From a virus, in the IMG/VR virus record IMGVR_UViG_3300030329_003260, positions 1 through 32,982 of that record: a stretch of DNA of 32,982 nucleotides. One strand, 5' to 3'. Positions within the stretch are counted from its first letter, which is position 1. Each line of letters begins with the position of its first letter. Below, piece after piece: positions 8,164 to 20,037 of the stretch. The notes beneath the pieces were generated by a model that was not told where the DNA came from, ran no database searches, and was given only the letters and a program-made list of their open reading frames with translations. The translations under genes were made by a program, and so were the position numbers.

Positions 8164-8535
8164 TTACCCATTATCAAAATTGTCTATTCCCGTTTTTATT
8201 AGTTGGATTGGCTCGTGTTGTTCAAGCTCAATCGTTTGTCTAGGTTTCCCCTCCATCCTGTCAGCAATAAATTGAACAGCCCAACTCTTACCTTGTATCG
8301 CATACATCATTGTCGTTCTCATTATAGCCTCCATCATTGTAATCTCTCCTAGCTCTGCACTATTAAATAATTTTTTCACCCTCTCTTTTAATTCTTTAGG
8401 AACGTCCTCTTCCCCTATCCGTCTTAACATATCAGGAATAGATAGAGAACCCTTTGGTCTTCCGTTTGGATTCCCTGAAGTACCCTTTGCAAATTGACCG
8501 TTATTTAACCTGTTATCACCTGTTTTATCAGGCAT
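8164..8535 (-). CDS. Small terminase-like protein, DUF5681 type
   Basis: A 123-residue protein whose N terminus reads GQFAKGTSGNPNGRPKGS, the signature of the DUF5681 family often encoded directly before large terminases. The remainder is helical and includes a segment GEITMMEAIMRTTMMYAIQG that may form an oligomerising helix. It probably recognises the packaging site on phage DNA and loads the large subunit. It overlaps the upstream glycosyltransferase gene by 8 bases and lies two bases before terL. Identification as small terminase is inference from motif plus position. Confidence 0.75.
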   Translation of the reverse strand: MPDKTGDNRLNNGQFAKGTSGNPNGRPKGSLSIPDMLRRIGEEDVPKELKERVKKLFNSAELGEITMMEAIMRTTMMYAIQGKSWAVQFIADRMEGKPRQTIELEQHEPIQLIKTGIDNFDNG

Positions 8536-9463
8536 AAAATAGCTCTTTTAGGTTTTTCATTAATTCTTGCCGTTCCACAAGTGCTGAGTCAACCCAACGA
8601 GCCTGTGATTCAATTCTTTCGTTGTATGTCTTATCTGCTATCTTCATTTTTTGTTTTAATTCTGTAGCTCCATTCACGAAATAAAAGTCATCCACATCCA
8701 ATCCAGCTAATTGCGTTGTTTTCTTAGCGTTCACGTCGAAAAACATCAGTACGTTGCACTGCAAAGCCTCATAAAAGCGATTTGCGAGATGCGAATAATG
8801 GTCGTGCGTTTTTAAGTCCTCAATATAGAGCGTGTATTTAAATAGATTTAATGTCTCAGCGTTCTTGTCCCATTTGAGTTTGTTGATTCCAATAGCGTCG
8901 CATCCAATCTCACGAAATTTTCTTAGGTTTTTTTGTGAGGTCGAAAGCATCATATCTTTGTTAAAATATTTCTTAAAATAGACCTCTCTGTTTGGTCTAT
9001 AACTTCCCCAATAAATCAAATCGTATTTCTTCTCAGTTAACTCATTCCTACCTTTGAATAATAAAAGATTCAAATTGAAAGTGTGAAAAGAAGAGTAACC
9101 CTTAACATTTGTTCCCGATTCAACGTGATTAGCGATAACGTCAAAGCTGTTTTCTTTTAAAAATTTGTGAAACGATGAGTTGGGAGATAGATTGTATTCA
9201 TTACTTAAAAAATAAAATTTTGATAAATCTTTCCTGTCTTCCATCCATCGCAAAAACGGAATAATATCGGCATAAAACGTACCATAGGAAACAACAATAT
9301 GCTCGAAGTTCCTATTCCAATGTTCCCGTAAGTGGTCTCTGTTATATAAAATCGTCGCATCTAATTCGTCTCTTAATACATAAGCGTTTCTAAGATGAGC
9401 GTCAATCGGACTTAAAGGTAAGTCTGATTTTGTCTTCTTAGATTCAATTATTGCGATTGACAC
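8528..9463 (-). CDS. Glycosyltransferase-like protein (GT-B type, CgeB-like)
   Basis: A 311-residue protein with KKYDLIYWGSYRPNREVYF (residues 145-163) and then NRFYEALQCNVLMFFD (228-243). The second phrase is the R-x-YEAL-x-C/G...D element of the nucleotide-sugar side of GT-B glycosyltransferases such as the CgeB and GT1-like families. The N-terminal half resembles an acceptor domain. The start is a GTG at 9463 inside the end of the ParB-like gene, with AGAGG four bases before it. It is encoded between a ParB-like gene and the terminase, which hints at modification of phage DNA or of a virion or host surface. Donor and acceptor are unknown. Confidence 0.6.
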   Translation of the reverse strand: MSIAIIESKKTKSDLPLSPIDAHLRNAYVLRDELDATILYNRDHLREHWNRNFEHIVVSYGTFYADIIPFLRWMEDRKDLSKFYFLSNEYNLSPNSSFHKFLKENSFDVIANHVESGTNVKGYSSFHTFNLNLLLFKGRNELTEKKYDLIYWGSYRPNREVYFKKYFNKDMMLSTSQKNLRKFREIGCDAIGINKLKWDKNAETLNLFKYTLYIEDLKTHDHYSHLANRFYEALQCNVLMFFDVNAKKTTQLAGLDVDDFYFVNGATELKQKMKIADKTYNERIESQARWVDSALVERQELMKNLKELFYA

Positions 9464-10017
9464 ATAACCTCTTTAGCTGTTTCAAACGAAATCTTTTTCT
9501 TATTAGTTCCAAACATTCCCTTAATTGCGTCTAGCTCCTCTTCGTTAGAGCATCCAACAATAAAATTCATACTATAATTTTCATAATCGTCATCGAGCAT
9601 TTCAATATCGCTCACTTCTCTTAAAAATGAGTTAGAAACGTCTAAACTTTTTGAATCAAAACCCCAATCCACCAACTCAGCCATATCAAATTCGTTTGCT
9701 AACTTATCCCAATCCCATTCCCCTGAGTTTTGATTAAGTCTAACGTTCAACTCTCGTTCTGCATCTAAAGATAAATTGACCTCAACGCAGGGAATCGTTT
9801 TCATTCCGTTCTCCCTAGCGATTCTGAGTCTTTGATGTCCACCTACTACCACGTTTTCTCTATCTGTAGAACGATTAATAACGATTGGTTCGACAAAACC
9901 AAATCTGTCAAGACTTTTGCGTAAATCAATTAACTGTTTTTCGGTTAGCTGACGTGGATTATACTCTGCGTCAACTAATTCAGAAATATTTTTATCTACT
10001 ACATTTAGTGTAGGAAT
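9448..10017 (-). CDS. ParB/Srx-domain protein with no canonical start codon
   Basis: Reading the minus strand from 10047 gives ISELVDAEYNPRQLTEKQ, then FGFVEPIVINRSTDRENVVV and GGHQRLRIARENGMKTIPC. These are the three boxes of the ParB N-terminal domain (YNPR, the PI(V/L)V strand and GHxRxxA). A WDWDKLANEFDMAELVDWGF tail follows, as in phage ParB-like proteins. The first usual start, a GTG at 9852, would remove the first two boxes. The frame upstream to the stop at 10050-10048 has no ATG, GTG or TTG. An ATT at 10017, with AAGG nine bases before it, is used here as a provisional start. Role: DNA binding or nuclease, possibly tied to packaging or DNA modification. Confidence 0.7.
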   Translation of the reverse strand: MPTLNVVDKNISELVDAEYNPRQLTEKQLIDLRKSLDRFGFVEPIVINRSTDRENVVVGGHQRLRIARENGMKTIPCVEVNLSLDAERELNVRLNQNSGEWDWDKLANEFDMAELVDWGFDSKSLDVSNSFLREVSDIEMLDDDYENYSMNFIVGCSNEEELDAIKGMFGTNKKKISFETAKEVMCQSQ

Positions 10018-10583: not shown

Positions 10584-10662
10584 TTTAGTGGTTTACAAGC
10601 GCCAACCCGTACATACTTTTTCTATGCAACCGTCAGACCTCTCCAACAGCTAAACCACTAAA
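10584..10662 (-). ncRNA. Tandem-stem RNA element bounded by a 12-bp inverted repeat
   Basis: TTTAGTGGTTTA and TAAACCACTAAA pair perfectly over twelve bases around a 55-base interior. Inside, on the minus strand, TGCATA-GAAAAAG-TATGTA gives a six-pair hairpin with a seven-base loop. The span between the inner seven pairs of the arms is 73 bases, the size of a tRNA, and it begins AGTGGTTTAGCTGTTGGAG, reminiscent of an acceptor, T8-A9 and D-arm. The T-loop and anticodon stem do not fit a tRNA. It fills the 168-base gap between two genes. It may be an sRNA, a processing site or a tRNA-like structure. Confidence 0.4.
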
Positions 10663-10663
10663 T

Positions 10664-10960
10664 CTAGTTTTCTTGCCGTTTTTGCCTAAGTAGAATAAGC
10701 ATATTTCCTATATAAACGCAACAGTCAAGTATTTCTTCCAAGCACTCTTCTAACCAATCACGACCATCGTTGATAGGCATAATCTGATTATATTTGTCGT
10801 AACCCTTTTGTAAGCGTCCTGCAACCATCCGTACTATTTCGTTCTGATTAAAGCAGTCCTGAAAACATTTTTCAGAGCAAAATTTTTCATCAAAATCAGT
10901 TAACGGATACTCTTCATCGGGATATATAGAAAAATCACCTTTACAGTTTTTACACTTCAT
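10664..10960 (-). CDS. Zinc-ribbon protein with MazG-like helical segment
   Basis: A 98-residue protein. Cysteines C3-x2-C6 and C28-x3-C32 form a likely zinc ribbon at the N terminus. The second half has RLQKGYDKYNQIMPINDGRD followed by WLEECLEEILDCCVYIGN. The E-E-x2-E-E-x2-D spacing matches all-alpha nucleotide pyrophosphohydrolases (MazG-like/dUTPase-like), which cleave nucleoside triphosphates to monophosphates. The call is tentative: such a short protein would work as an oligomer. It overlaps the preceding 51-residue gene by four bases (ATGA) and ends two bases before the structured RNA element. A role in nucleotide-pool control during replication is likely. Confidence 0.55.
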   Translation of the reverse strand: MKCKNCKGDFSIYPDEEYPLTDFDEKFCSEKCFQDCFNQNEIVRMVAGRLQKGYDKYNQIMPINDGRDWLEECLEEILDCCVYIGNMLILLRQKRQEN

Positions 10961-11112
10961 TTCTTCTCCTTGTAGTAAACAATATTACCATTTTTATCTC
11001 TCAAAATTTCGTTAGTCTTTGGATTGACAATAGCTCCATTTTGAATTGCTTTCATTTCATCAATTTTTTTATCAATCTCAACAACTATTTTATCTAACCT
11101 ATCTAAGCTCAT
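10957..11112 (-). CDS. 51-residue small protein, replication operon
   Basis: An ATG at 11112 gives a 51-residue frame starting MSLDRLDKIVVEIDKKIDEM and ending VYYKEKK. Its start overlaps the initiator stop and its stop overlaps the next start, both as ATGA, with GGAGG eight bases before its ATG. These signals support translation. The N-terminal half is a likely short coiled coil; the rest has a NPKTNEILRDKNGNIVYY beta-hairpin-like part. No family recognised. Confidence 0.65.
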   Translation of the reverse strand: MSLDRLDKIVVEIDKKIDEMKAIQNGAIVNPKTNEILRDKNGNIVYYKEKK

Positions 11113-11894
11113 AACGAAACCTCCTGAGATTTATATATCTCCCACTCACTAATCGAAATCATTTGAGATAAACATTTTTTGCATTTAACTATTTTCTTTG
11201 ATTCAACCATTTTCTTTTCGTGTCCTTTTTCGTGATGATAGACAGGACATATTTTTTCTAGTTGAACGACCTCTTGTTCATCTTTTTCAAATTTCCACGT
11301 TTTAACACAAGCCTTCCAACTCTTAATAGGTTTCTTACCTGCACCCTGAACCCAACCATTCGTTTCGTAGTAATTAAAAAATCTCTCAGCATTTGAATTT
11401 GGTGATACGATATTAATTTCTTTAAAGTAATCAACAACCATATTCAAATTTTTCGGTTTGTCTTTATATTGTCTTTGTCTTTGTTTTATTTCTTTATCTT
11501 TATCTTTATCTTGTACTGTTCCTGATGAACTGTTGCTTAACAGTTCCTCAACACTTAATTCATCATTTAAACCATACCTTTCAAGAATCTTAATTACTGA
11601 CTTATGAGCATTTACATTCTCATTTAGTTCTCCATATTGGTAATCAATAAACTTAGGTATGAACCACTTATCTTTTTTGAATGGAACTATCTTACGATGG
11701 AACGTTTTGAGTATTTCTTGTTCATCATATTTAGTACCTCCGATGTCAAAGTCTGCCCGTTTTACGTCCACGTCCCAAACTCCTGCGTGGTCGCAGTTGT
11801 CCAACAAATAAAACCAAAATAGTTTCATCTTTGGTGATAGCTCTCTAATCCAACGTTTTCTCCAAACATTGGTATCTCGGAATCGTTTAGCCAT
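11109..11894 (-). CDS. Replication initiator/replisome organiser-like protein
   Basis: A 261-residue protein. The N-terminal part (RFRDTNVWRKRWIRELSPK then LFWFYLLDNCDHAGVWDVD) matches the winged-helix domain of phage replication proteins of the lambda O/DnaD-like kind. A charged linker (residues about 128-150, KDKDKEIKQRQRQYKDKP) leads to a helical region with RFFNYYETNGWVQGAG and SWKACVKTW, like DnaD-type C-terminal domains that load helicase. Late cysteines (C-P-V-Y...C-K-K-C) could bind zinc. It would melt or bind the phage origin and recruit the host helicase. The gene follows a NinG-like nuclease and precedes small replication genes. Confidence 0.65.
   Translation of the reverse strand: MAKRFRDTNVWRKRWIRELSPKMKLFWFYLLDNCDHAGVWDVDVKRADFDIGGTKYDEQEILKTFHRKIVPFKKDKWFIPKFIDYQYGELNENVNAHKSVIKILERYGLNDELSVEELLSNSSSGTVQDKDKDKEIKQRQRQYKDKPKNLNMVVDYFKEINIVSPNSNAERFFNYYETNGWVQGAGKKPIKSWKACVKTWKFEKDEQEVVQLEKICPVYHHEKGHEKKMVESKKIVKCKKCLSQMISISEWEIYKSQEVSL
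11461..11515 (-). repeat. A-rich iterated motif inside the initiator gene (possible origin)
   Basis: The linker part of the initiator gene carries repeated units of the AAAGATAAAGAT and AAAGACAAAGAC type on the minus strand (plus strand TCTTTAT/TCTTTGT units). In lambda-like phages the origin lies inside the initiator gene as repeated binding sites in an equivalent linker. That is the reason for noting it; the short repeats may simply encode the KDKDKEIKQRQRQ linker. Confidence 0.3.
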
Positions 11895-13958: not shown

Positions 13959-14103
13959 TAGACACTCTCCTTACTTTAACATTAAGTCGCTCTAAGTTCC
14001 TAGCTAATCGGATGCAAACTTTGTCCCACTTAGCATCGTTCATATCCTCAGGTCTTGGGATAAAGACTTTCAGACCTTTGTCTGTAGTTTTCCACTTAAT
14101 CAT
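13933..14103 (-). CDS. 56-residue early protein
   Basis: An ATG at 14103 gives MIKWKTTDKGLKVFIPRPED and, later, KVCIRLARNLERLNVKVRR. The start overlaps the stop of the upstream gene by 8 bases and its end overlaps the next gene. It is basic and helical with no recognised domain. The overlap pattern, shared with its neighbours, is the reason for accepting such a short gene. Confidence 0.55.
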   Translation of the reverse strand: MIKWKTTDKGLKVFIPRPEDMNDAKWDKVCIRLARNLERLNVKVRRVSSADNNSEE

Positions 14104-14272
14104 TTTTAGACCTCATATTCTTTTTATAGTAACCTGATTTGTCTAAAATGTCATCAATCCCACTGTCTAAATGTCTCAAATTTATCCTCATTTGAATCGG
14201 GTCGTCATTATGTTCACCCGTAGAATAAATCAAAAGACCTGCTATTTTATCCAAGATTTCAGCTTTTTTCAT
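14096..14272 (-). CDS. 58-residue early protein
   Basis: The preferred ATG at 14272 is preceded by GGAGAGAGT; the protein is then MKKAEILDKIAGLLIYSTGE with a C-terminal GYYKKNMRSKND. An upstream in-frame extension to 14377 has no good site and crosses the small membrane gene. No family is recognised. The HNDDPIQMRINLRHLDSGID stretch looks helical. It is the second gene of the leftward early operon. Confidence 0.55.
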   Translation of the reverse strand: MKKAEILDKIAGLLIYSTGEHNDDPIQMRINLRHLDSGIDDILDKSGYYKKNMRSKND

Positions 14273-14280
14273 ACTCTCTC

Positions 14281-14421
14281 CTATGGTATGTAAGTTAACT
14301 TGACTACGATTTTTAGCATAAACAAAACAAACAACATTAAGCAAACTGGTATCAAATTTGGTTTTAAATAGAACCAAATAGTCCCAAAAATCAATTCGAG
14401 TTTGTCATTTATTTTGCTCAT
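14281..14421 (-). CDS. Small early membrane protein (46 residues)
   Basis: An ATG at 14421 opens a 46-residue frame, MSKINDKLELIFGTIWFYLK, followed by a hydrophobic segment IPVCLMLFVLFMLKIVV that fits one membrane helix. AAAGGA lies about 14 bases before the ATG, slightly far. Its stop TAG overlaps the ribosome site of the next gene. It is the first gene of the leftward operon. Small early phage membrane peptides sometimes block superinfection or disturb the host membrane; here that is only a possibility. Confidence 0.5.
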   Translation of the reverse strand: MSKINDKLELIFGTIWFYLKPNLIPVCLMLFVLFMLKIVVKLTYIP

Positions 14422-14445
14422 TTTTAGCGTAAAAATCCTTTCAGA

Positions 14446-14474
14446 ACTTAAAAAAAGATAAAAATAAATGTCAA
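14446..14474 (-). promoter_or_regulatory. Candidate leftward early promoter
   Basis: On the minus strand a perfect -35 TTGACA (14474-14469) is followed after 17 bases by TTAAGT (14451-14446), a poor -10. It lies about 25 bases before the first leftward ATG and is the best sigma-70-like start signal for the early operon. Confidence 0.45.
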
Positions 14475-14501
14475 GTTTTTTCTACAACACCCAATCGCTA
14501 A

Positions 14502-14566
14502 AATACCGTTTAAGGTGTCTGGCACGCTCAAGGCGTTCGTTTTTTAAGCCAACGGTTAACGGTATT
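14502..14566. repeat. Inverted repeat with nested stems in the control region
   Basis: AATACCGTT (14502-14510) and AACGGTATT (14558-14566) are perfect inverted copies nine bases long with 47 bases between. Inside, TGGC/GCCA and ACGC/GCGT could make nested stems, and GTTCGTTTTTT follows the inner one on the plus strand. It may be a regulator site, a structured RNA, or a terminator for a rightward transcript that starts outside. Confidence 0.4.
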
Positions 14567-14603
14567 AAAAAGTCATTTTCTCGATTTTCTTGACGAGGGC
14601 TTA

Positions 14604-14633
14604 TTAACTTTTTTAGGATAATTTATGTATAAT
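14604..14633 (+). promoter_or_regulatory. Candidate rightward promoter 1
   Basis: TTAACT (14604-14609) and a consensus -10 TATAAT (14628-14633) are separated by 18 bases. A TTGACG at 14590-14595 is too far from this -10. Transcription would begin near 14640, about 108 bases before the amidoligase start. Confidence 0.4.
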
Positions 14634-14662
14634 ATTTTGTCAAAAAAAATTGACGAAAGTTC

Positions 14663-14691
14663 TTGCACGGGAATGCCCTATTGCTTAATAT
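14663..14691 (+). promoter_or_regulatory. Candidate rightward promoter 2
   Basis: TTGCAC (14663-14668) and TAATAT (14686-14691) are 17 bases apart. The start would be near 14698, leaving a 50-base leader with AAGGAG at 14733-14738 before the amidoligase ATG. Confidence 0.35.
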
Positions 14692-14747
14692 TATGTATGA
14701 ATTATGACACTCAAACAAACAAAACAAAAAATAAGGAGAAAAATGTT

Positions 14748-15659
14748 ATGTTTCGTTCATTTAATAATAATAGAGGTTTTGGAATTGAAATCGAATGTAT
14801 TGCAAACCAAAGCAGAAATGAAGTCGCTACAATAATTAGTAATGCAGGTGTACCTTGCGTTGCTGAAGGTTACAACCACTCAACTAGAGACCATTGGAAA
14901 ATAGTAACTGACGGTTCTGTAAGTGGTTCAGGGAATGCGATGGAAATTGTTAGCCCTATATTAGTAGGTCAAGATGGTAAACTTGCACTATCAGTAGTTT
15001 TAAGTGCTTTAAATAATACTGACGGTCTTGTAGTTGAAGTAAACAGAAGTTGTGGGATTCACGTTCATCACGATTTGACAAGTTGGAGAGAGTCTGCTAG
15101 AGCAGTTTTTGCCAATAATATGAATAACCTAGTTTCTTTAATTGCAAAGTATGAACACTGCTTGTTCAAACTTTTACCTGCATCAAGACAAGGTCAGTGG
15201 AGTTCTCCCGTAAGAAGTATTATGACTAGATATGCTACTAACGATACTATGACTTATGCTGAGAGAACTAAAGAGATGAAGAGAGTTCATAGAAGACGCT
15301 CAGTTTCAAGTATTCAGAACACTCGTTACTGTGGATTGAATCTTCAAAATCTTTTTGGTAGAGGTTCAGTAGAGTTTCGTTATCATCAGGGTTCAACTAA
15401 TTTTAACAAGCTTTGGAATTGGATTGTTTTCACCCAAGCTTTTGTTGAAACTGCTGAAATCAAAAAGTCAATATCTTACACCGATTCAATGACTCGTATT
15501 TCTTGCAACTCAGCACTTAGTCGCTTACGTTGTGATTTAGGACTAAGGAAAGCTGACAACTGTGAAGAGTTAAAAGCTTGTGATATTGAAATCAAAAGAC
15601 GTTACCATCATTACAAGAATGTTAGAGTTTCAAACTCAATCATTCGCAACGGACAATAA
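14748..15659 (+). CDS. Amidoligase (glutamine-synthetase-fold COOH-NH2 ligase)
   Basis: A 303-residue enzyme. GFGIEIECI (residues 10-18), KIVTDGSVSGSGNAMEIVSP (51-70), CGIHVHHDL (102-110) and GRGSVEFRYHQG (204-215) match the Amidoligase_2 family, in which acidic, His and Arg residues hold ATP and metal as in gamma-glutamylcysteine ligases. Such enzymes join a carboxyl group to an amine with ATP. The ATG at 14748 is chosen because AAGGAG lies nine bases before it; an upstream in-frame ATG at 14625 has none. It opens the rightward operon, directly before a glutamine amidotransferase that could supply ammonia. Substrate is unknown: a peptide, cell-wall piece or protein are all possible. Confidence 0.8.
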   Translation: MFRSFNNNRGFGIEIECIANQSRNEVATIISNAGVPCVAEGYNHSTRDHWKIVTDGSVSGSGNAMEIVSPILVGQDGKLALSVVLSALNNTDGLVVEVNRSCGIHVHHDLTSWRESARAVFANNMNNLVSLIAKYEHCLFKLLPASRQGQWSSPVRSIMTRYATNDTMTYAERTKEMKRVHRRRSVSSIQNTRYCGLNLQNLFGRGSVEFRYHQGSTNFNKLWNWIVFTQAFVETAEIKKSISYTDSMTRISCNSALSRLRCDLGLRKADNCEELKACDIEIKRRYHHYKNVRVSNSIIRNGQ

Positions 15660-15670
15660 GGAGAAATATT

Positions 15671-16573
15671 ATGTGTGGATTAGCAGGAGTAATTTTAAAA
15701 GATAAAAGCAGGTCAAAGGTTGACCTGCTAGGTGTCAGAGCAGGTTTTGAATCTGCTCTAACGAATGCGAGAGTTCGTGGAACTCACGCAACGGGTTATG
15801 CAAAGATAGATTCATCAGGAAAGCACGAGATAGTTAAGCGAGACCTAGATGCGACTAACTTTGTAAATAGGTTCGGTGAGTATCTAAAAAGCATAAGTTC
15901 GATTGACAAACATACTACGGTTCTTATGGGTCATACTCGTTATGCAACTCAGGGAGAACCTGAAATCAATCGCAACAACCATCCTATCAGAGCAGGGAAG
16001 ACCATTGGTACTCATAATGGATGGGTCTCAAATGACGATGAGCTATTTGAACATTACAACCTAGAGCGATTTGCTGAAGTTGACTCAGAAGTTATTTTCA
16101 GAATGGCAGATGACTCAGATACAGTTGATGAGTTTGTCAATAATCGCTTTACGAAAATTCGTGGAAGAGCGACTATTGTGTGGACAGATATTGAACGACC
16201 TGAGTATGTGTACCTACTTAAAGGAAATAATCCTTTAGAGGTAGCATATAACAAGAAACTAGAGCTATTGGTTTATGGTTCGACTTGGGATATTATTAAA
16301 GACTCGTTTCCATCTGAGGATATTGAACGTATGGTTACTAAGGAAAATCACCTATATAGAATCAATACTAAAACCTTTAAGATTAGAGCGACTAAGGTTG
16401 CTTGTAATTTTTCAGGACTTGATAGATTCTTGTATAAAAGTCCTCAGAAAAAAACTGTTTACCAAAACACGGTTAAACGGTTTGTGCCAGTTTTCACCAA
16501 TAAAGACCGTCAGGAAAAATTGTTTAAGAATGTGAAAGCATCTGATGGTTCAACGATAAGGAGAATCAAATAA
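15671..16573 (+). CDS. Class II glutamine amidotransferase
   Basis: A 300-residue Ntn hydrolase. After Met comes Cys2 (MCGLAGVIL), the nucleophile freed by Met removal. Further motifs are RGTHATGYA (36-44), GHTRYATQG (87-95), NNHPI (102-106), GTHNGWVSN (113-121) and VDSEVIF (137-143), the full set for glutamine binding and ammonia release. No synthase domain is attached, so the ammonia or glutamine-derived group must go to a partner, probably the amidoligase twelve bases upstream. AAGGAG before the ATG and a TAATG overlap with the next gene show it is part of a tight operon. Confidence 0.9.
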   Translation: MCGLAGVILKDKSRSKVDLLGVRAGFESALTNARVRGTHATGYAKIDSSGKHEIVKRDLDATNFVNRFGEYLKSISSIDKHTTVLMGHTRYATQGEPEINRNNHPIRAGKTIGTHNGWVSNDDELFEHYNLERFAEVDSEVIFRMADDSDTVDEFVNNRFTKIRGRATIVWTDIERPEYVYLLKGNNPLEVAYNKKLELLVYGSTWDIIKDSFPSEDIERMVTKENHLYRINTKTFKIRATKVACNFSGLDRFLYKSPQKKTVYQNTVKRFVPVFTNKDRQEKLFKNVKASDGSTIRRIK

Positions 16574-16950
16574 TGAAACGAGTTGAAATGCGATTCCTAC
16601 TTCATAACCCTGATGGATGGTTGGAGTCTAAGTTTGACGAGGTTAACGAGAATCTTCTTGGTATAGAGGGATGGATAGATTGCTATTTGAAGGATAAGAA
16701 GTGTGGTCTTTGTAGGGGCAAGTTTAACAACTTGCTCCATCAGACCAAAGTTACCAAATCTGAATTAGCAAAAGCCTTTAGGTTGTATAAAGTTTATGTT
16801 TGGGTTTTGATGAAAACGGGAAAAAGTTTAACAAGAGAGAGGTTAGGAATATATGTGAGCGAGAAGAGAAGTATTAAGTCTCAAAAATTAGCTCATCACC
16901 CTAAGTTGGGAGTGTATTTAAAGGAGAAATCTGATGACCAAGATAATTAG
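16573..16950 (+). CDS. Hypothetical protein with Cys pair, amidoligase operon
   Basis: A 125-residue basic protein. It has KKCGLCRGKFNNLLHQTKV (residues 42-60), a possible C-x2-C knuckle, then aromatic helices (AKAFRLYKVYVWVLMKTGK). No family is recognised. The ATG overlaps the amidotransferase stop by one base and its own stop falls inside the deformylase start (17-base overlap), so it is made together with both. It might be an adaptor or substrate of the modifying enzymes, but nothing shows this directly. Confidence 0.6.
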   Translation: MKRVEMRFLLHNPDGWLESKFDEVNENLLGIEGWIDCYLKDKKCGLCRGKFNNLLHQTKVTKSELAKAFRLYKVYVWVLMKTGKSLTRERLGIYVSEKRSIKSQKLAHHPKLGVYLKEKSDDQDN

Positions 16951-17479
16951 AGAAGACCATAACCTTTTGCACAAGGTCTGTGAGCCTGTTTCTGTCAGAC
17001 AAGGAAACAAGATTGCAAAAATCCTGATTGACAAAATTAAGGCAAATAAACCTATTTGCGTAGGTCTTGCAAGTAATCAAATTGGTTATGACAGAAGTGT
17101 CGCAGTGGTTGATACGGACGATTCTAAGACTCCTATTATCCTGATTAATCCCAAGATAGTTGAGAAGAGCAATCCACTGAAACCTTTTAAAGAGGGATGT
17201 ATGAGTTTTCCTGATGTCGAAAAAAGTATTGTCAGATACGGGTATATAAAAGTTGAAACCGATTTAGGTCTGATGGAATTTGGATGCAAAGACAGACCTG
17301 ATAAGAAAAAATACTTTACTGCGATTGCCGTTCAACACGAGATAGACCACCTGAACGGATTGACGATTCACGATAGAGCTTTAAAACCACGCACCGTGAA
17401 TAAGATTGGTCGCAACGATAATTGTCTTTGTGGAAGTTTGAAAAAAGCTAAGAAGTGTTGCAGGGTATATGATTTCTGA
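16934..17479 (+). CDS. def: Peptide deformylase with C-terminal SEC-C zinc motif
   Basis: Residues 1-150 carry the three deformylase motifs: GLASNQIG (44-51), EGCMSFP (87-93) and QHEIDHLNG (134-142). Cys89, His135 and His139 bind the metal and Glu136 is the catalytic base. The enzyme removes formyl from new protein N termini. Then GRNDNCLCGSLKKAKKCC (159-176) is a SEC-C type zinc motif (C164, C166, C175, C176), unusual on deformylase. SEC-C elsewhere binds partners such as SecB or acts near ribosomes. Phage deformylases are known from marine phages. AAGGAG precedes the ATG. Confidence 0.9.
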   Translation: MTKIIREDHNLLHKVCEPVSVRQGNKIAKILIDKIKANKPICVGLASNQIGYDRSVAVVDTDDSKTPIILINPKIVEKSNPLKPFKEGCMSFPDVEKSIVRYGYIKVETDLGLMEFGCKDRPDKKKYFTAIAVQHEIDHLNGLTIHDRALKPRTVNKIGRNDNCLCGSLKKAKKCCRVYDF

Positions 17480-17537
17480 TGGAGAGCGAGTCCTGAGTAT
17501 GACTTTAAAAAAGACTCTTGTTTGTTAGAGCGAAACG

Positions 17538-17573
17538 GTGTCCGTTGGGTTTCCTTATTGACCTGACGGACAC
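17538..17573 (+). terminator. 8-bp stem-loop after deformylase gene
   Basis: GTGTCCGT (17538-17545) and ACGGACAC (17566-17573) form a perfect stem with a 20-base loop, with a short GGGT/ACCT stem inside. TTTGTTATTG follows, a weak T stretch. It lies in the only larger gap of the operon (131 bases, otherwise empty of genes) and may end transcription after the deformylase or attenuate expression of the histone-like and downstream genes. Confidence 0.5.
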
Positions 17574-17610
17574 TTTGTTATTGTAAGAAATAATTGACTA
17601 GGAGTAAATT

Positions 17611-17814
17611 ATGATTCAAAAAACCAAAGTAAAACAGGCGTTTAATAGGAAAAAAATCCAAATTAATGTTGATGCACTAAACCTGATTGAGAGACGATTC
17701 TCAAGAATGGTTGATATGTGGTCTGATAATGCCAAAAATGGAAACGTAAAACGGGTTACTGCTGAAACCGTGCATCTTGCTTTTGGAGACCTTGAAAGAT
17801 ATATAGGGAGTTAA
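17611..17814 (+). CDS. Histone-fold DNA-binding protein
   Basis: A 67-residue protein. KTKVKQAFNRKKIQIN (residues 4-19) parallels the first histone helix, VDALNLIERRFSRMVDMWSD (20-39) the long middle helix and NAKNGNVKRVTAETVHLAFG (40-59) the loop with Arg-Thr-x-x-x-x-(V/I)xxA, as in archaeal histones (GRKTIKAEDIELA) and bacterial histones. TAGGAG lies before the ATG. It would bind or coat DNA as a dimer or larger complex, perhaps phage DNA during early infection. Note: the middle helix is a few residues shorter than in archaeal forms, and the tails are absent. The next gene starts right after its stop (TAAATG). Confidence 0.6.
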   Translation: MIQKTKVKQAFNRKKIQINVDALNLIERRFSRMVDMWSDNAKNGNVKRVTAETVHLAFGDLERYIGS

Positions 17815-18396
17815 ATGAAATTATTTGTTTATGGAACGTTAAAACGTGGAGGAGTATTGCACCATCATTTAAACGGGTGCGAATATTATGGAGTTGATAA
17901 AATCTCAGGATTTTCAATGTATCAACTTGGATGGTTTCCTGCTGTTAAAAATACAGAAGATGAGAACGAGACCATCTACGGAGAGATTTATGAGGTTGAT
18001 AGGAGAGTCTTAAAGCAGATAGATAAAATTGAGGGAAAGGGAGTTTTGTATGAACGAAATAAATGCAAAACAAGGCACGGAGACTGTTTTATTTATGTTT
18101 ACAAAAACGATGAGAACACTTTAAAGACTTGGGATTATCCAAAAGTTCCATACGGGTTTTTTGAGATACCAAATAAAAAATGGAAAATCACCATTGGAGA
18201 CGATTTGTATAAAGGAGATTCATCTAAGGTTGTTTTTGATATGAGATTTTTCGATACGTCAGCAGGACGGTGCGATACTAATAAGCAGTATATGAGATTA
18301 TATAAAGAGAGAACGTGGGATTTAGACATAAATACGAGCTTAGAGAGTGTGTTCCTGACCGACTTAATGATACAATGTAATTTAGAGGAGATATAA
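17815..18396 (+). CDS. Gamma-glutamylcyclotransferase/AIG2-like protein with C-terminal extension
   Basis: A 193-residue protein. VYGTLKRGG (5-13) and IDKIEGKGVLYER (69-81) are the glycine loop and the catalytic Glu (E73) region of the gamma-glutamylcyclotransferase fold, with IYGEIYEVD (54-62) between. This family splits gamma-glutamyl amides, releasing 5-oxoproline. After residue about 105 an 85-residue segment of unknown fold follows (KVVFDMRFFDTSAGRCDTNK), not normal for AIG2-only proteins. In a phage operon with an amidoligase it could remove or edit the ligase's product. AGGGAG precedes its ATG. Confidence 0.75.
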   Translation: MKLFVYGTLKRGGVLHHHLNGCEYYGVDKISGFSMYQLGWFPAVKNTEDENETIYGEIYEVDRRVLKQIDKIEGKGVLYERNKCKTRHGDCFIYVYKNDENTLKTWDYPKVPYGFFEIPNKKWKITIGDDLYKGDSSKVVFDMRFFDTSAGRCDTNKQYMRLYKERTWDLDINTSLESVFLTDLMIQCNLEEI

Positions 18397-18398
18397 AA

Positions 18399-18632
18399 AT
18401 GCCATTTCCATTTAGTTTTGAAGAGCGATTTGTTGGTAAGAGCTTAAAGGATGTAATCGAAAGCACGGGATTGAAACAAAGATTTATTGCTAAAAAAATC
18501 GGAGTTTCTGAAACAATGTTTTCGCATCAAGTTGCAGGTCGCAGGAAAATGACAAAAGAGCAAAAAAGAACATTAGCTAAAACGTTAAAAGTAAGAATCA
18601 GAGATATAATGAAACTTACTAAGTCTGAATAG
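18399..18632 (+). CDS. XRE-family helix-turn-helix regulator
   Basis: A 77-residue protein with KDVIESTGLKQRFIAKKIG and VSETMFSHQVAGRRKMT, a Cro/C1-like helix-turn-helix (helix 2 and 3 around residues 26-45). GAGGAG lies before the ATG. It is the last gene of the rightward operon and its 3' end overlaps the end of the convergent adhesin gene by 14 bases, so transcripts from both sides would meet. It may control one of the promoters at 14.4-14.7 kb. No lysogeny integrase was seen, so a simple early-late switch is more likely than a prophage repressor. Confidence 0.75.
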   Translation: MPFPFSFEERFVGKSLKDVIESTGLKQRFIAKKIGVSETMFSHQVAGRRKMTKEQKRTLAKTLKVRIRDIMKLTKSE

Positions 18633-20037
18633 TTACTTTGGTTTGGTAGCGATTGTGGGAGATTTCTTGAAATTCCATCGGTTCAACCAATCCATAGTTA
18701 TAAACATTATCAAACGTATAAATCATTTTATAAGTATTTGCATTTTTAGATAACGTTTCAAATTCTGCCTTCAAAGAGGACGAGATATTCGAGTAGTTTC
18801 TTATTATTCGCTTTGTCTCGTCCTTTGTTTTATATATGTATTCAGCACCGTTTAGACTCTCAGATTGCTTGTTGTCAAAAACGGAATCATAGCTAGAACC
18901 CACATCATATCTAATCTCAGGAATGAACTCATCTCCAATCAGAACCTCTCCGATTTTTGAATCAGCACTAAGACTCTCACACTGAACTCCGTAATACCTA
19001 TAGTTGGCATCAAACCGAATTAATGTCCATCCGAGAGTTGAATCGAACCCCGAACCAATGCTTGTCCACCCTGAACCCTGCGAATTACTGCCGTAAAATT
19101 CTAAATTTCCACTGAGCGAAACGTTAAGATGCACTGCAATAAAACTTATTGTCTTTTGTGAGCCTAAATCAAAAACAACGCAAGATTTATTTGATGCTGT
19201 ATTTTTAAAAGTAGCACTCAAACTTGCATTCCCATCTATTAGAGCAGACGGATTTAAAACTGCTGAAGTGTTGCTTGTAAAATTCCCACCCGTAATAGTT
19301 CCCCGTAATATTGTAGAATCTTTTAATCCGATATTGTCATAAAAATAAATGTCGTCTGATATTCCAATCGAAATTGAAAAATTATCTCCAACCGTAAGAG
19401 TCTCAGAATTAGATTTTATTATTTTCCAATCGTCAACTGCTCTAGTAAGAGCGTCTGAAGATTCTACGGTATCGCTTGGAGTTAAATAGTATTTCCATCG
19501 TTCTACGTTTGTTGAAAATGTTTCTGAAAATGAGATTGAGTCTGATGGAGTGTGTGCTTCCCTCCATATTTCTGTCGCTCTAGTTAGAGAATCGGATATA
19601 CTCAGACCCATACTGTAAGATAAAATATGTCTCCAAGTATCCACTGCTCTCGTGAGACTGTCGCTATTGGTTATGGTGTCAGATAAAGAAACCGTCGTTC
19701 TGTAAGAAGAGACCGACCTGCTAAGACTATCTGATGTGTTAACCGAATCAAGTGATAGTGCGACAACCTCTCGCCACGTATCTGTAGCTTTTGTGAAACT
19801 ATCGCTTAAAGATAATGAGTCTGATAGACTTCTGACAAATTTCCAATCACTAACACCCCTTGAAAGCGAGTCTGAAGTATATACAGCATCTAAGGATAGT
19901 GTAAATGTTTTTCGCCAAGTCGAAACCGATTTAGTAAAAGAATCGGAGGTCGAGATACTATCTGAATGACTAAAAGTTTTAGTCTCAGGGAGTCCTGTAA
20001 TAGTAAAATAATCTGAATAATCGGTTAAATTAGGCAT
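18619..20037 (-). CDS. Tail adhesin with 23-residue repeats and a discoidin-like domain
   Basis: A 472-residue protein, last of the leftward tail block. Residues about 21-227 contain eight imperfect repeats built on SDSLTRAVDTW-like units; aromatic residues stand at 41, 65, 88, 112, 135, 158, 181 and 204, so the period is 23-24. Residues about 245-385 (VVFDLGSQKTISFIAVHLNV, LEFYGSN) resemble an F5/8-type (discoidin) carbohydrate-binding fold. The end (NRYQTKVTIQT) resembles the end of the 124-residue tail protein at 21350-21724. It is probably the host-binding tip: repeats as a spacer, discoidin as ligand binder, C-terminal part docking to the tail. Confidence 0.65.
   Translation of the reverse strand: MPNLTDYSDYFTITGLPETKTFSHSDSISTSDSFTKSVSTWRKTFTLSLDAVYTSDSLSRGVSDWKFVRSLSDSLSLSDSFTKATDTWREVVALSLDSVNTSDSLSRSVSSYRTTVSLSDTITNSDSLTRAVDTWRHILSYSMGLSISDSLTRATEIWREAHTPSDSISFSETFSTNVERWKYYLTPSDTVESSDALTRAVDDWKIIKSNSETLTVGDNFSISIGISDDIYFYDNIGLKDSTILRGTITGGNFTSNTSAVLNPSALIDGNASLSATFKNTASNKSCVVFDLGSQKTISFIAVHLNVSLSGNLEFYGSNSQGSGWTSIGSGFDSTLGWTLIRFDANYRYYGVQCESLSADSKIGEVLIGDEFIPEIRYDVGSSYDSVFDNKQSESLNGAEYIYKTKDETKRIIRNYSNISSSLKAEFETLSKNANTYKMIYTFDNVYNYGLVEPMEFQEISHNRYQTKVTIQT
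19357..19977 (-). repeat. Tandem 69-72-base repeats in adhesin gene
   Basis: About eight diverged coding copies of a 23-24 codon unit. The common core is S-D-S-(L/F)-(T/S)-(R/K)-x-V-x-x-W. Spacing of the conserved aromatic is 24, 23, 24, 23, 23, 23, 23 residues. Such a tandem tract could gain or lose units by recombination and change fibre length. Confidence 0.75.

Follow-up and report, generated by a model that had tools for sequence, protein, structure and literature searches.

For a change of the cell wall against superinfection, the source cited is reportedly the amidoligase survey of Iyer from 2009. The portion of PMC10580990 available to us cites it in this sense. In the accessible passages of PMC5498523, ligases, an ATP-grasp enzyme, an amidotransferase and a cyclotransferase are grouped as the "Peptidoglycan Modification Cassette", which is thought to prevent superinfection; the cassette phages named there are PSA-HP1, RIO-1, phiEco32, 7-11, PA11, tf, MR299-2, LUZ24, PaP3 and CW02. 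Here, we analyzed the whole IMG/VR virus record IMGVR_UViG_3300030329_003260 at its full length of 32,982 bases (the window), in which seven rightward (+) genes, from 14748 to 18632, are flanked by leftward blocks. This island is a known kind of three-enzyme cassette, consisting of an amidoligase, a class II glutamine amidotransferase and a gamma-glutamylamine cyclotransferase, here expanded by insertions.

The window shares with the podovirus cassette, as far as the accessible passages of PMC5498523 describe it, the clustering of amidoligase, glutamine amidotransferase and gamma-glutamyl cyclotransferase. The podovirus cassette contains two amidoligases and an ATP-grasp enzyme, whereas the window encodes one ligase and gave no ATPgrasp_ST match in the search described below; in turn, the window adds a deformylase with a SEC-C tail, two orphan genes, a helix-turn-helix (HTH) gene and a location on the opposite strand. 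Because ATPgrasp_ST was not found, we call the window similar in working rather than a full member, and by analogy its cassette resembles a reduced form of the podovirus one. For UFV-P2, the available part of PMC3890496 lists Amidoligase_2, GATase_6 and AIG2 genes, which in UFV-P2 and LUZ24-like phages lie within one early stretch. That set is longer, with COOH-NH2_lig and ATP-grasp, and its cyclotransferase has 131 amino acids compared with 193 in the window. In the Arthrobacter phages Salgado, Laroye and Ottawa, the ligase is followed by the amidotransferase as in the window, but the ligases are only 31–34% identical to ours, the order differs and no deformylase is noted in the stretches examined; the AIG2-like gene of cluster AL Arthrobacter phages lies ahead of the ligase, according to the part of PMC5513430 at hand. 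Bacillus phage 055SW001 and phage C75C1 carry a ligase with a cyclotransferase nearby, and Tn6164 has a ligase near a cyclotransferase (PMC3485107, available passages); no amidotransferase is annotated in any of these stretches. The cassette features of the window are:

14748..15659, + strand: amidoligase of family Amidoligase_2 (PF12224), 303 amino acids; Pfam match, conserved residues kept, AAGGAGA upstream
15671..16573, + strand: class II glutamine amidotransferase (GATase_6), 300 amino acids, with a Met-Cys-Gly N-terminus and without a synthase domain
16535..16570, + strand: conserved C-terminal tail of the amidotransferase, KASDGSTIRRIK, from an alignment of relatives
17815..18396, + strand: gamma-glutamylamine cyclotransferase of GGACT/AIG2 type, 193 amino acids; profile, alignment and predicted structure
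18166..18393, + strand: extra C-terminal region of the cyclotransferase (residues 118–193), a beta hairpin and three helices in the model

The ligase matches Amidoligase_2 at 6e-29 in Pfam (102.1 bits, cut-off 22; 103.1 bits in the genome search) and keeps the 25 columns that are invariant in a ten-sequence family alignment, among them E14, E16, D55, H105, H107, E209 and R211, numbered from the Met at 14748. We prefer this start over that of the longest open reading frame (ORF) at 14625, because AAGGAGA lies just upstream and the position fits the starts in relatives such as loci L126 and L130; most queries used the longer form, which is 41 residues too long.

The amidotransferase matches GATase_6 at 2.9e-15 (56.9 bits, cut-off 27), and the glutaminase domain is the only domain that Pfam and NCBIfam searches found in it. 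The protein starts with Met-Cys-Gly, contains HTR and NG motifs, which we take to be marks of class II amidotransferases, and keeps the columns common to four close relatives at 46–49% identity. After a variable linker, the motif DG[S/T]xI[R/K][K/R] forms the C-terminus in all 26 distinct full-length relatives, window included (shorter fragments were dropped). No description of this tail was found in the literature searched; our guess is that it docks on the ligase.

The cyclotransferase matches GGACT (PF06094) at 7.7e-21 (75.3 bits, cut-off 22.8). Y6, G7, L9 and K10 of its YGTLKxG loop and the conserved Glu at position 73 (E73) are invariant in 25 sequences, and T8 is nearly so. Its structural model has a mean predicted local distance difference test score (pLDDT) of 92.2, and the nearest structures, in agreement with Foldseek, are PH0828 (Z 16.9), YkqA (Z 15.9) and the human enzyme, gamma-glutamylamine cyclotransferase (116 residues at Z 15.3, root-mean-square deviation 2.3 A), whereas glutathione-type and gamma-glutamyl amino acid enzymes are farther away (Z 10.4 or less). 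The extra region of about 75 residues conserves V140-F141, R144, F146-D147, N156 and Y159-M160. It has no convincing Pfam or PHROG match, with only the L126 copy weakly matching phrog_35003 (E 0.0017), and no description was found in the literature searched; nine records of the phage collection match the cyclotransferase of locus L019, none of them beyond residue 122 of 201. A single-protein viral scan with the cyclotransferase gave no relatives, whereas the alignment-based scan did. An initial annotation had called these three genes an amidoligase starting at 14748, an amidotransferase and a gamma-glutamylcyclotransferase-like enzyme. All of this agrees with our results: each profile lies above its cut-off (curated, for the ligase), the conserved amidotransferase columns are kept, the cyclotransferase model has the fold of solved cyclotransferases, and 14748 is the better ligase start.

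This set recurs in related uncultured phages. Alignment-based viral scans gave 436 relatives of the ligase, of which the best 80 were kept, 34 loci for the amidotransferase and 36 for the cyclotransferase. These contain 28 distinct close amidotransferases, window included, where distinct means a different last 60 residues and the contigs are related. All three genes are present on the available stretch in 26 cassettes (window included), and in 22 of these the order is ligase–amidotransferase–cyclotransferase within 300 nucleotides, often with overlapping stop and start codons. Together with the published precedents, this supports the three-enzyme set of the initial annotation. The relatives are uncultured phage loci (L019–L024, L097–L126, L130–L152) with amidotransferases 41–53% identical to that of the window, many of them with terminase-like and other window proteins. 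Most lack any insert, and in most the cassette lies on the terminase strand upstream of the terminase, its better-known arrangement. In L126, the three enzyme genes stand together with a homologue of the HTH gene on the + strand amid – strand genes, without inserts and with replication-like genes on the left and tail-like genes on the right, as in the window; L126 also has 10 of the 34 other window proteins tested. Since L126 carries the same inverted island without them, three of the following genes look inserted:

16573..16950, + strand: ORF of 125 amino acids between amidotransferase and deformylase, with a ribosome-binding-like sequence
16934..17479, + strand: peptide deformylase with motifs GLASNQ, EGCMS and HEIDH; Pfam match
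17411..17461, + strand: SEC-C metal-binding tail of the deformylase (residues 160–176), over the Pfam cut-off
17537-17574, + strand: terminator-like hairpin of 15 pairs between deformylase and the next ORF
17611..17814, + strand: ORF of 67 amino acids, a three-helix protein in the predicted structure
18399..18632, + strand: HTH transcriptional-regulator-like protein, 77 amino acids; family matches, and an L126 homologue in the same place (E 5e-6)

In the simplest history, with a presumed direction of change, the 125-aa ORF, the deformylase and the 67-aa ORF would have entered an island of four genes. The cassette would be carried by a tailed-phage lineage, and the three extra genes would have been picked up in this phage.

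We propose that ligase, amidotransferase and cyclotransferase together amidate cytoplasmic cell-wall precursors, or strip gamma-glutamyl groups from them, a tentative reading that we rate a little short of an even chance. The catalytic residues of these three enzymes and of the deformylase are intact by alignment and the enzymes look active; on reading the enzymes no signal sequence is evident, so the substrate is probably cytoplasmic. Chemistry, target, docking roles and benefit to the phage are what we infer. The class II amidotransferase, perhaps kept on the ligase by its conserved C-terminal tail, would hydrolyze host glutamine and pass the ammonia to the glutamine-synthetase-like amidoligase, which would turn a carboxylate into an amide at the expense of ATP. 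By opening gamma-glutamyl-amine bonds and releasing 5-oxoproline, the GGACT-like enzyme would allow gamma-glutamyl linkages to be removed or exchanged. The target would most likely be the stem peptide of a cell-wall precursor, and the wall might be altered against superinfecting phages or lysis tuned.

Several observations weigh against this interpretation. The literature searched gave precedents for the cassette but named no substrate for any phage member, and the cell-wall role is itself a hypothesis in the accessible passages of PMC5498523. ATPgrasp_ST, taken to represent the ATP-grasp partner of the larger sets, gave no match in the record, in a search whose control was positive in 7 of 14 genomes, that covered no other ATP-grasp family and that was made on a possibly incomplete record; COOH-NH2_lig, the second amidoligase, gave no match in a search without a positive control. 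Being related, the 26 cassettes do not count as independent observations, and not all of them keep the gene order: in L125 (8306-10771) the cassette is rearranged, with the ligase on the opposite strand and a short cyclotransferase ahead of the amidotransferase, while amidotransferase and cyclotransferase are separated by 2.1–2.7 kb of other small genes in L130 and L132 and by 1.24 kb in the window.

The added genes do not travel with the cassette either. Neither the 125-aa nor the 67-aa ORF turned up in 152 other loci (many of them overlapping), the deformylase domain was not found in the 149 loci that had not been fetched for deformylase, and the other island genes were not found on the available stretches around 160 deformylase loci. 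A conserved five-gene module is thus rejected, because its deformylase–cassette linkage was not found in the 152 and the 160 loci, and with it the suggestion that deformylase, 67-aa ORF and enzymes form one module; only the three enzyme genes (four with the HTH gene, in one relative) recur together, whereas the deformylase and the 125-aa and 67-aa ORFs do not. Finally, a gap of 131 nucleotides with the strong terminator-like hairpin separates deformylase and 67-aa ORF. The segment 17530-17590 folds at z –5.7, and the region contains five terminator-like sites compared with 2.3 expected. Because of gap and hairpin, the island may comprise two transcription units, one running from the ligase to the deformylase and the other from the 67-aa ORF to the HTH gene; the hairpin speaks against a single operon, and the description of the locus as one tight operon is not confirmed.

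Some of the same evidence could be read as a small-molecule pathway, in which a gamma-glutamyl group would be attached by the ligase and taken off again by the cyclotransferase, serving in between for protection or as a carrier, and yielding an amide metabolite that aids the phage or blocks host defence. In butirosin biosynthesis, a gamma-glutamyl group is added and later removed in this way (BtrJ/BtrG). The ligase–cyclotransferase pairs without amidotransferase in Bacillus phage 055SW001 and phage C75C1 fit such a pathway, as does the GGACT fold, that of the enzymes releasing amines from their gamma-glutamyl derivatives. We nevertheless regard the pathway as unlikely, since 17 window proteins scanned against family libraries included neither a carrier protein nor any other biosynthetic gene.

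Alternatively, the ligase might amidate or glutamylate a carboxylate of a host or phage protein, possibly the amidotransferase's own tail, and the cyclotransferase would reverse this. The retention of that tail behind a variable linker in 26 of 26 full-length amidotransferases would suit a modified site, but a docking role accounts for it equally well and no modified protein is known, which makes protein modification quite improbable.

The deformylase could also belong to the cassette. In class II amidotransferases, the catalytic Cys2 must become the N-terminal residue, and a deformylase could speed removal of formyl-Met from the Met-Cys-Gly start of the amidotransferase, whose gene precedes the deformylase gene by 361 nucleotides in the same proposed unit. 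This is very unlikely, as other cassettes share the Met-Cys-Gly start without a deformylase on the available stretches and phage deformylases are found without the cassette.

Phages hypermodify DNA bases, and a ParB-like plus methyltransferase-like sequence lies at 9448-9852, but a DNA base or other nucleotide amide as the product of ligase and amidotransferase is the most far-fetched of these possibilities, as a scan limited to 17 of the window proteins hit no family of nucleotide hydroxymethylases, thymidylate-synthase-like proteins or glycosyltransferases. The piece at 9448-9852 is ParB-like and aligns with phrog_498, a DNA methyltransferase family, within that family's N-terminal region (positions 84-170 of 633); it is overlapped by a 311-aa ORF (8528-9463) without a PHROG match.

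We infer that the deformylase is a separate helper and not a cassette enzyme. It matches Pep_deformylase at 4.1e-30 (104.9 bits, cut-off 22.8) with all three metal and catalytic motifs present, and NCBIfam TIGR00079 at 100.6, slightly below that model's own cut-off of 103.95. Its tail, with a CxC...CC metal site, reaches 22.1 bits against SEC-C (PF02810; cut-off 20.4), so that the proposed deformylase with a zinc tail is confirmed in both parts. The tail occupies the place of the ribosome-binding helix of E. coli deformylase. Domains of the SEC-C kind can bind the ribosome. In SecA, such a domain binds SecB (available part of PMC8076867). Viral deformylases are described as lacking the ribosome-interacting C-terminal helix in the parts of PMC5591237 and PMC12690207 at hand; those of Vp16 and S-SSM7 (PMC5591237) share the catalytic motifs of the window protein and likewise lack the helix, while the SEC-C tail is the window's. 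In the literature searched, as far as its text was accessible, deformylase and SEC-C were mentioned together by a single paper, and there in unrelated passages.

Among the 80 viral deformylase loci listed (L154–L233), 27 end in SEC-C and 30 in an LK(Y/W/F)KK tail; neither tail occurs in the best 80 bacterial loci kept. Since the viral scan was seeded partly on SEC-C and the bacterial seeds lacked it, 27/80 versus 0/80 is not a fair ratio. Because of this difference in selection we added a DNA pattern search for the deformylase–SEC-C fusion, which gave no hit in 459 bacterial genomes from two phyla (0/398 in the phylum of genome G001, 0/61 in that of G002); so strict a pattern may overlook variants, and its 12 of 12 positives were found by construction. 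The fusion is also present in the 634-kb uncultured phage LR745206, and was not seen in the deformylases of Caulobacter phage Cr30 or Myxococcus phage Mx1. A single-protein viral scan with the deformylase gave no relatives, whereas the alignment-based scan did. A common GRN linker precedes both tails, which interchange among close relatives. A quick tree of 99 catalytic domains, for which 15 of the 80 bacterial loci were taken, requires a minimum of 16 changes in the SEC-C state, a soft figure because many forks are unresolved. One clade of 48 deformylases (Shimodaira–Hasegawa-like approximate likelihood-ratio test, SH-aLRT, 100) contains 24 with SEC-C, 20 KK-tailed and four others; the window protein falls outside this clade, at the end of a long branch.

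These exchangeable tails are the more surprising part of our findings. It is possible, if rather doubtful, that phages repeatedly fitted short deformylases with exchangeable docking tails (SEC-C, LK(Y/W/F)KK) in place of the lost ribosome-binding helix, redirecting N-terminal processing in infected cells to phage nascent chains or the SecA/SecB export route, here from within a cell-wall-editing cassette. In L130, a 66-aa stand-alone SEC-C protein (10605-10805) directly follows the cyclotransferase, a second SEC-C case in this slot, and is itself followed by an ORF (10805-11392) that by eye resembles a tyrosine recombinase.

The 67-aa ORF had been called a histone-fold gene with a role in DNA organization. 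No Pfam, PHROG or NCBIfam family came near significance and no histone was found among PDB sequences; a single-protein viral scan gave two stretches, neither of them a relative. The single-sequence AlphaFold2 model (helices 5-13, 20-42 and 51-64) is of modest confidence, with a mean pLDDT of 73.1 and a predicted TM-score (pTM) of 0.47. Its three-helix layout is that expected of a histone fold, which the protein could possibly have, judged from the model. The Foldseek comparison gave a best match at E 3.9 and several weak matches to histone-fold chains at E 4.8 or worse, and with VIA-align 2 histone chains scored Z 3.4 or less compared with up to 5.0 for unrelated entries. The fold comparisons are not significant, and neither the histone call nor the DNA-organizing role based on it is established. 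Phage histones, as described in the available part of PMC11390915, have an N-terminal histone fold (alpha3) and a C-terminal helical tetramerization domain. The likeness to them is that of a small helical phage protein, whereas the 67-aa ORF has no detected histone similarity; its model has three helices in 67 amino acids. The 125-aa ORF has no family match in Pfam, PHROG or NCBIfam and none in the phage collection.

The record contains 45 ORFs of at least 90 amino acids, 35 of them on the – strand, five in the island on the + strand and five others on the + strand, four of which face – ORFs, with the fifth at the left edge of the record; the island thus does run against the rest of the phage, as first described. 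All five + strand ORFs listed in the initial annotation are present, but the 125-aa gene (16573-16950) and the HTH gene (18399-18632) had been overlooked. A purine-rich ribosome-binding-like sequence precedes each of the seven island genes, an argument for the 125-aa and 67-aa ORFs being genes. Upstream of the island lies:

14378..14747, + strand: intergenic region with a promoter-like TTAACT-18-TATAAT at 14604-14633, directly upstream of the ligase start

This site carries no statistical weight, because the 13 promoter-like sites in the region equal the expectation from shuffles (13.3). The G+C content of the island genes (0.333–0.383) does not stand out against 0.38 for the record. Rfam matched nothing in 14000-18800 up to E 1, and PADLOC gave weak HTH and SEC-C matches but no convincing defence family. 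A 472-aa protein (18619-20037) converges on the HTH gene and overlaps its end; by eye, its N-terminal half contains repeated Ser-rich units around SDS(L/F)(T/S) and W(R/K).

Amidoligase sets are widespread in phages, and this minimal three-gene version, retained within one lineage and with its conserved amidotransferase tail and extended cyclotransferase, is a small system for working out their chemistry. The deformylase–SEC-C fusion, present in phages and in none of the sampled bacterial genomes, offers a handle on how phage deformylases may act without the ribosome-binding helix.

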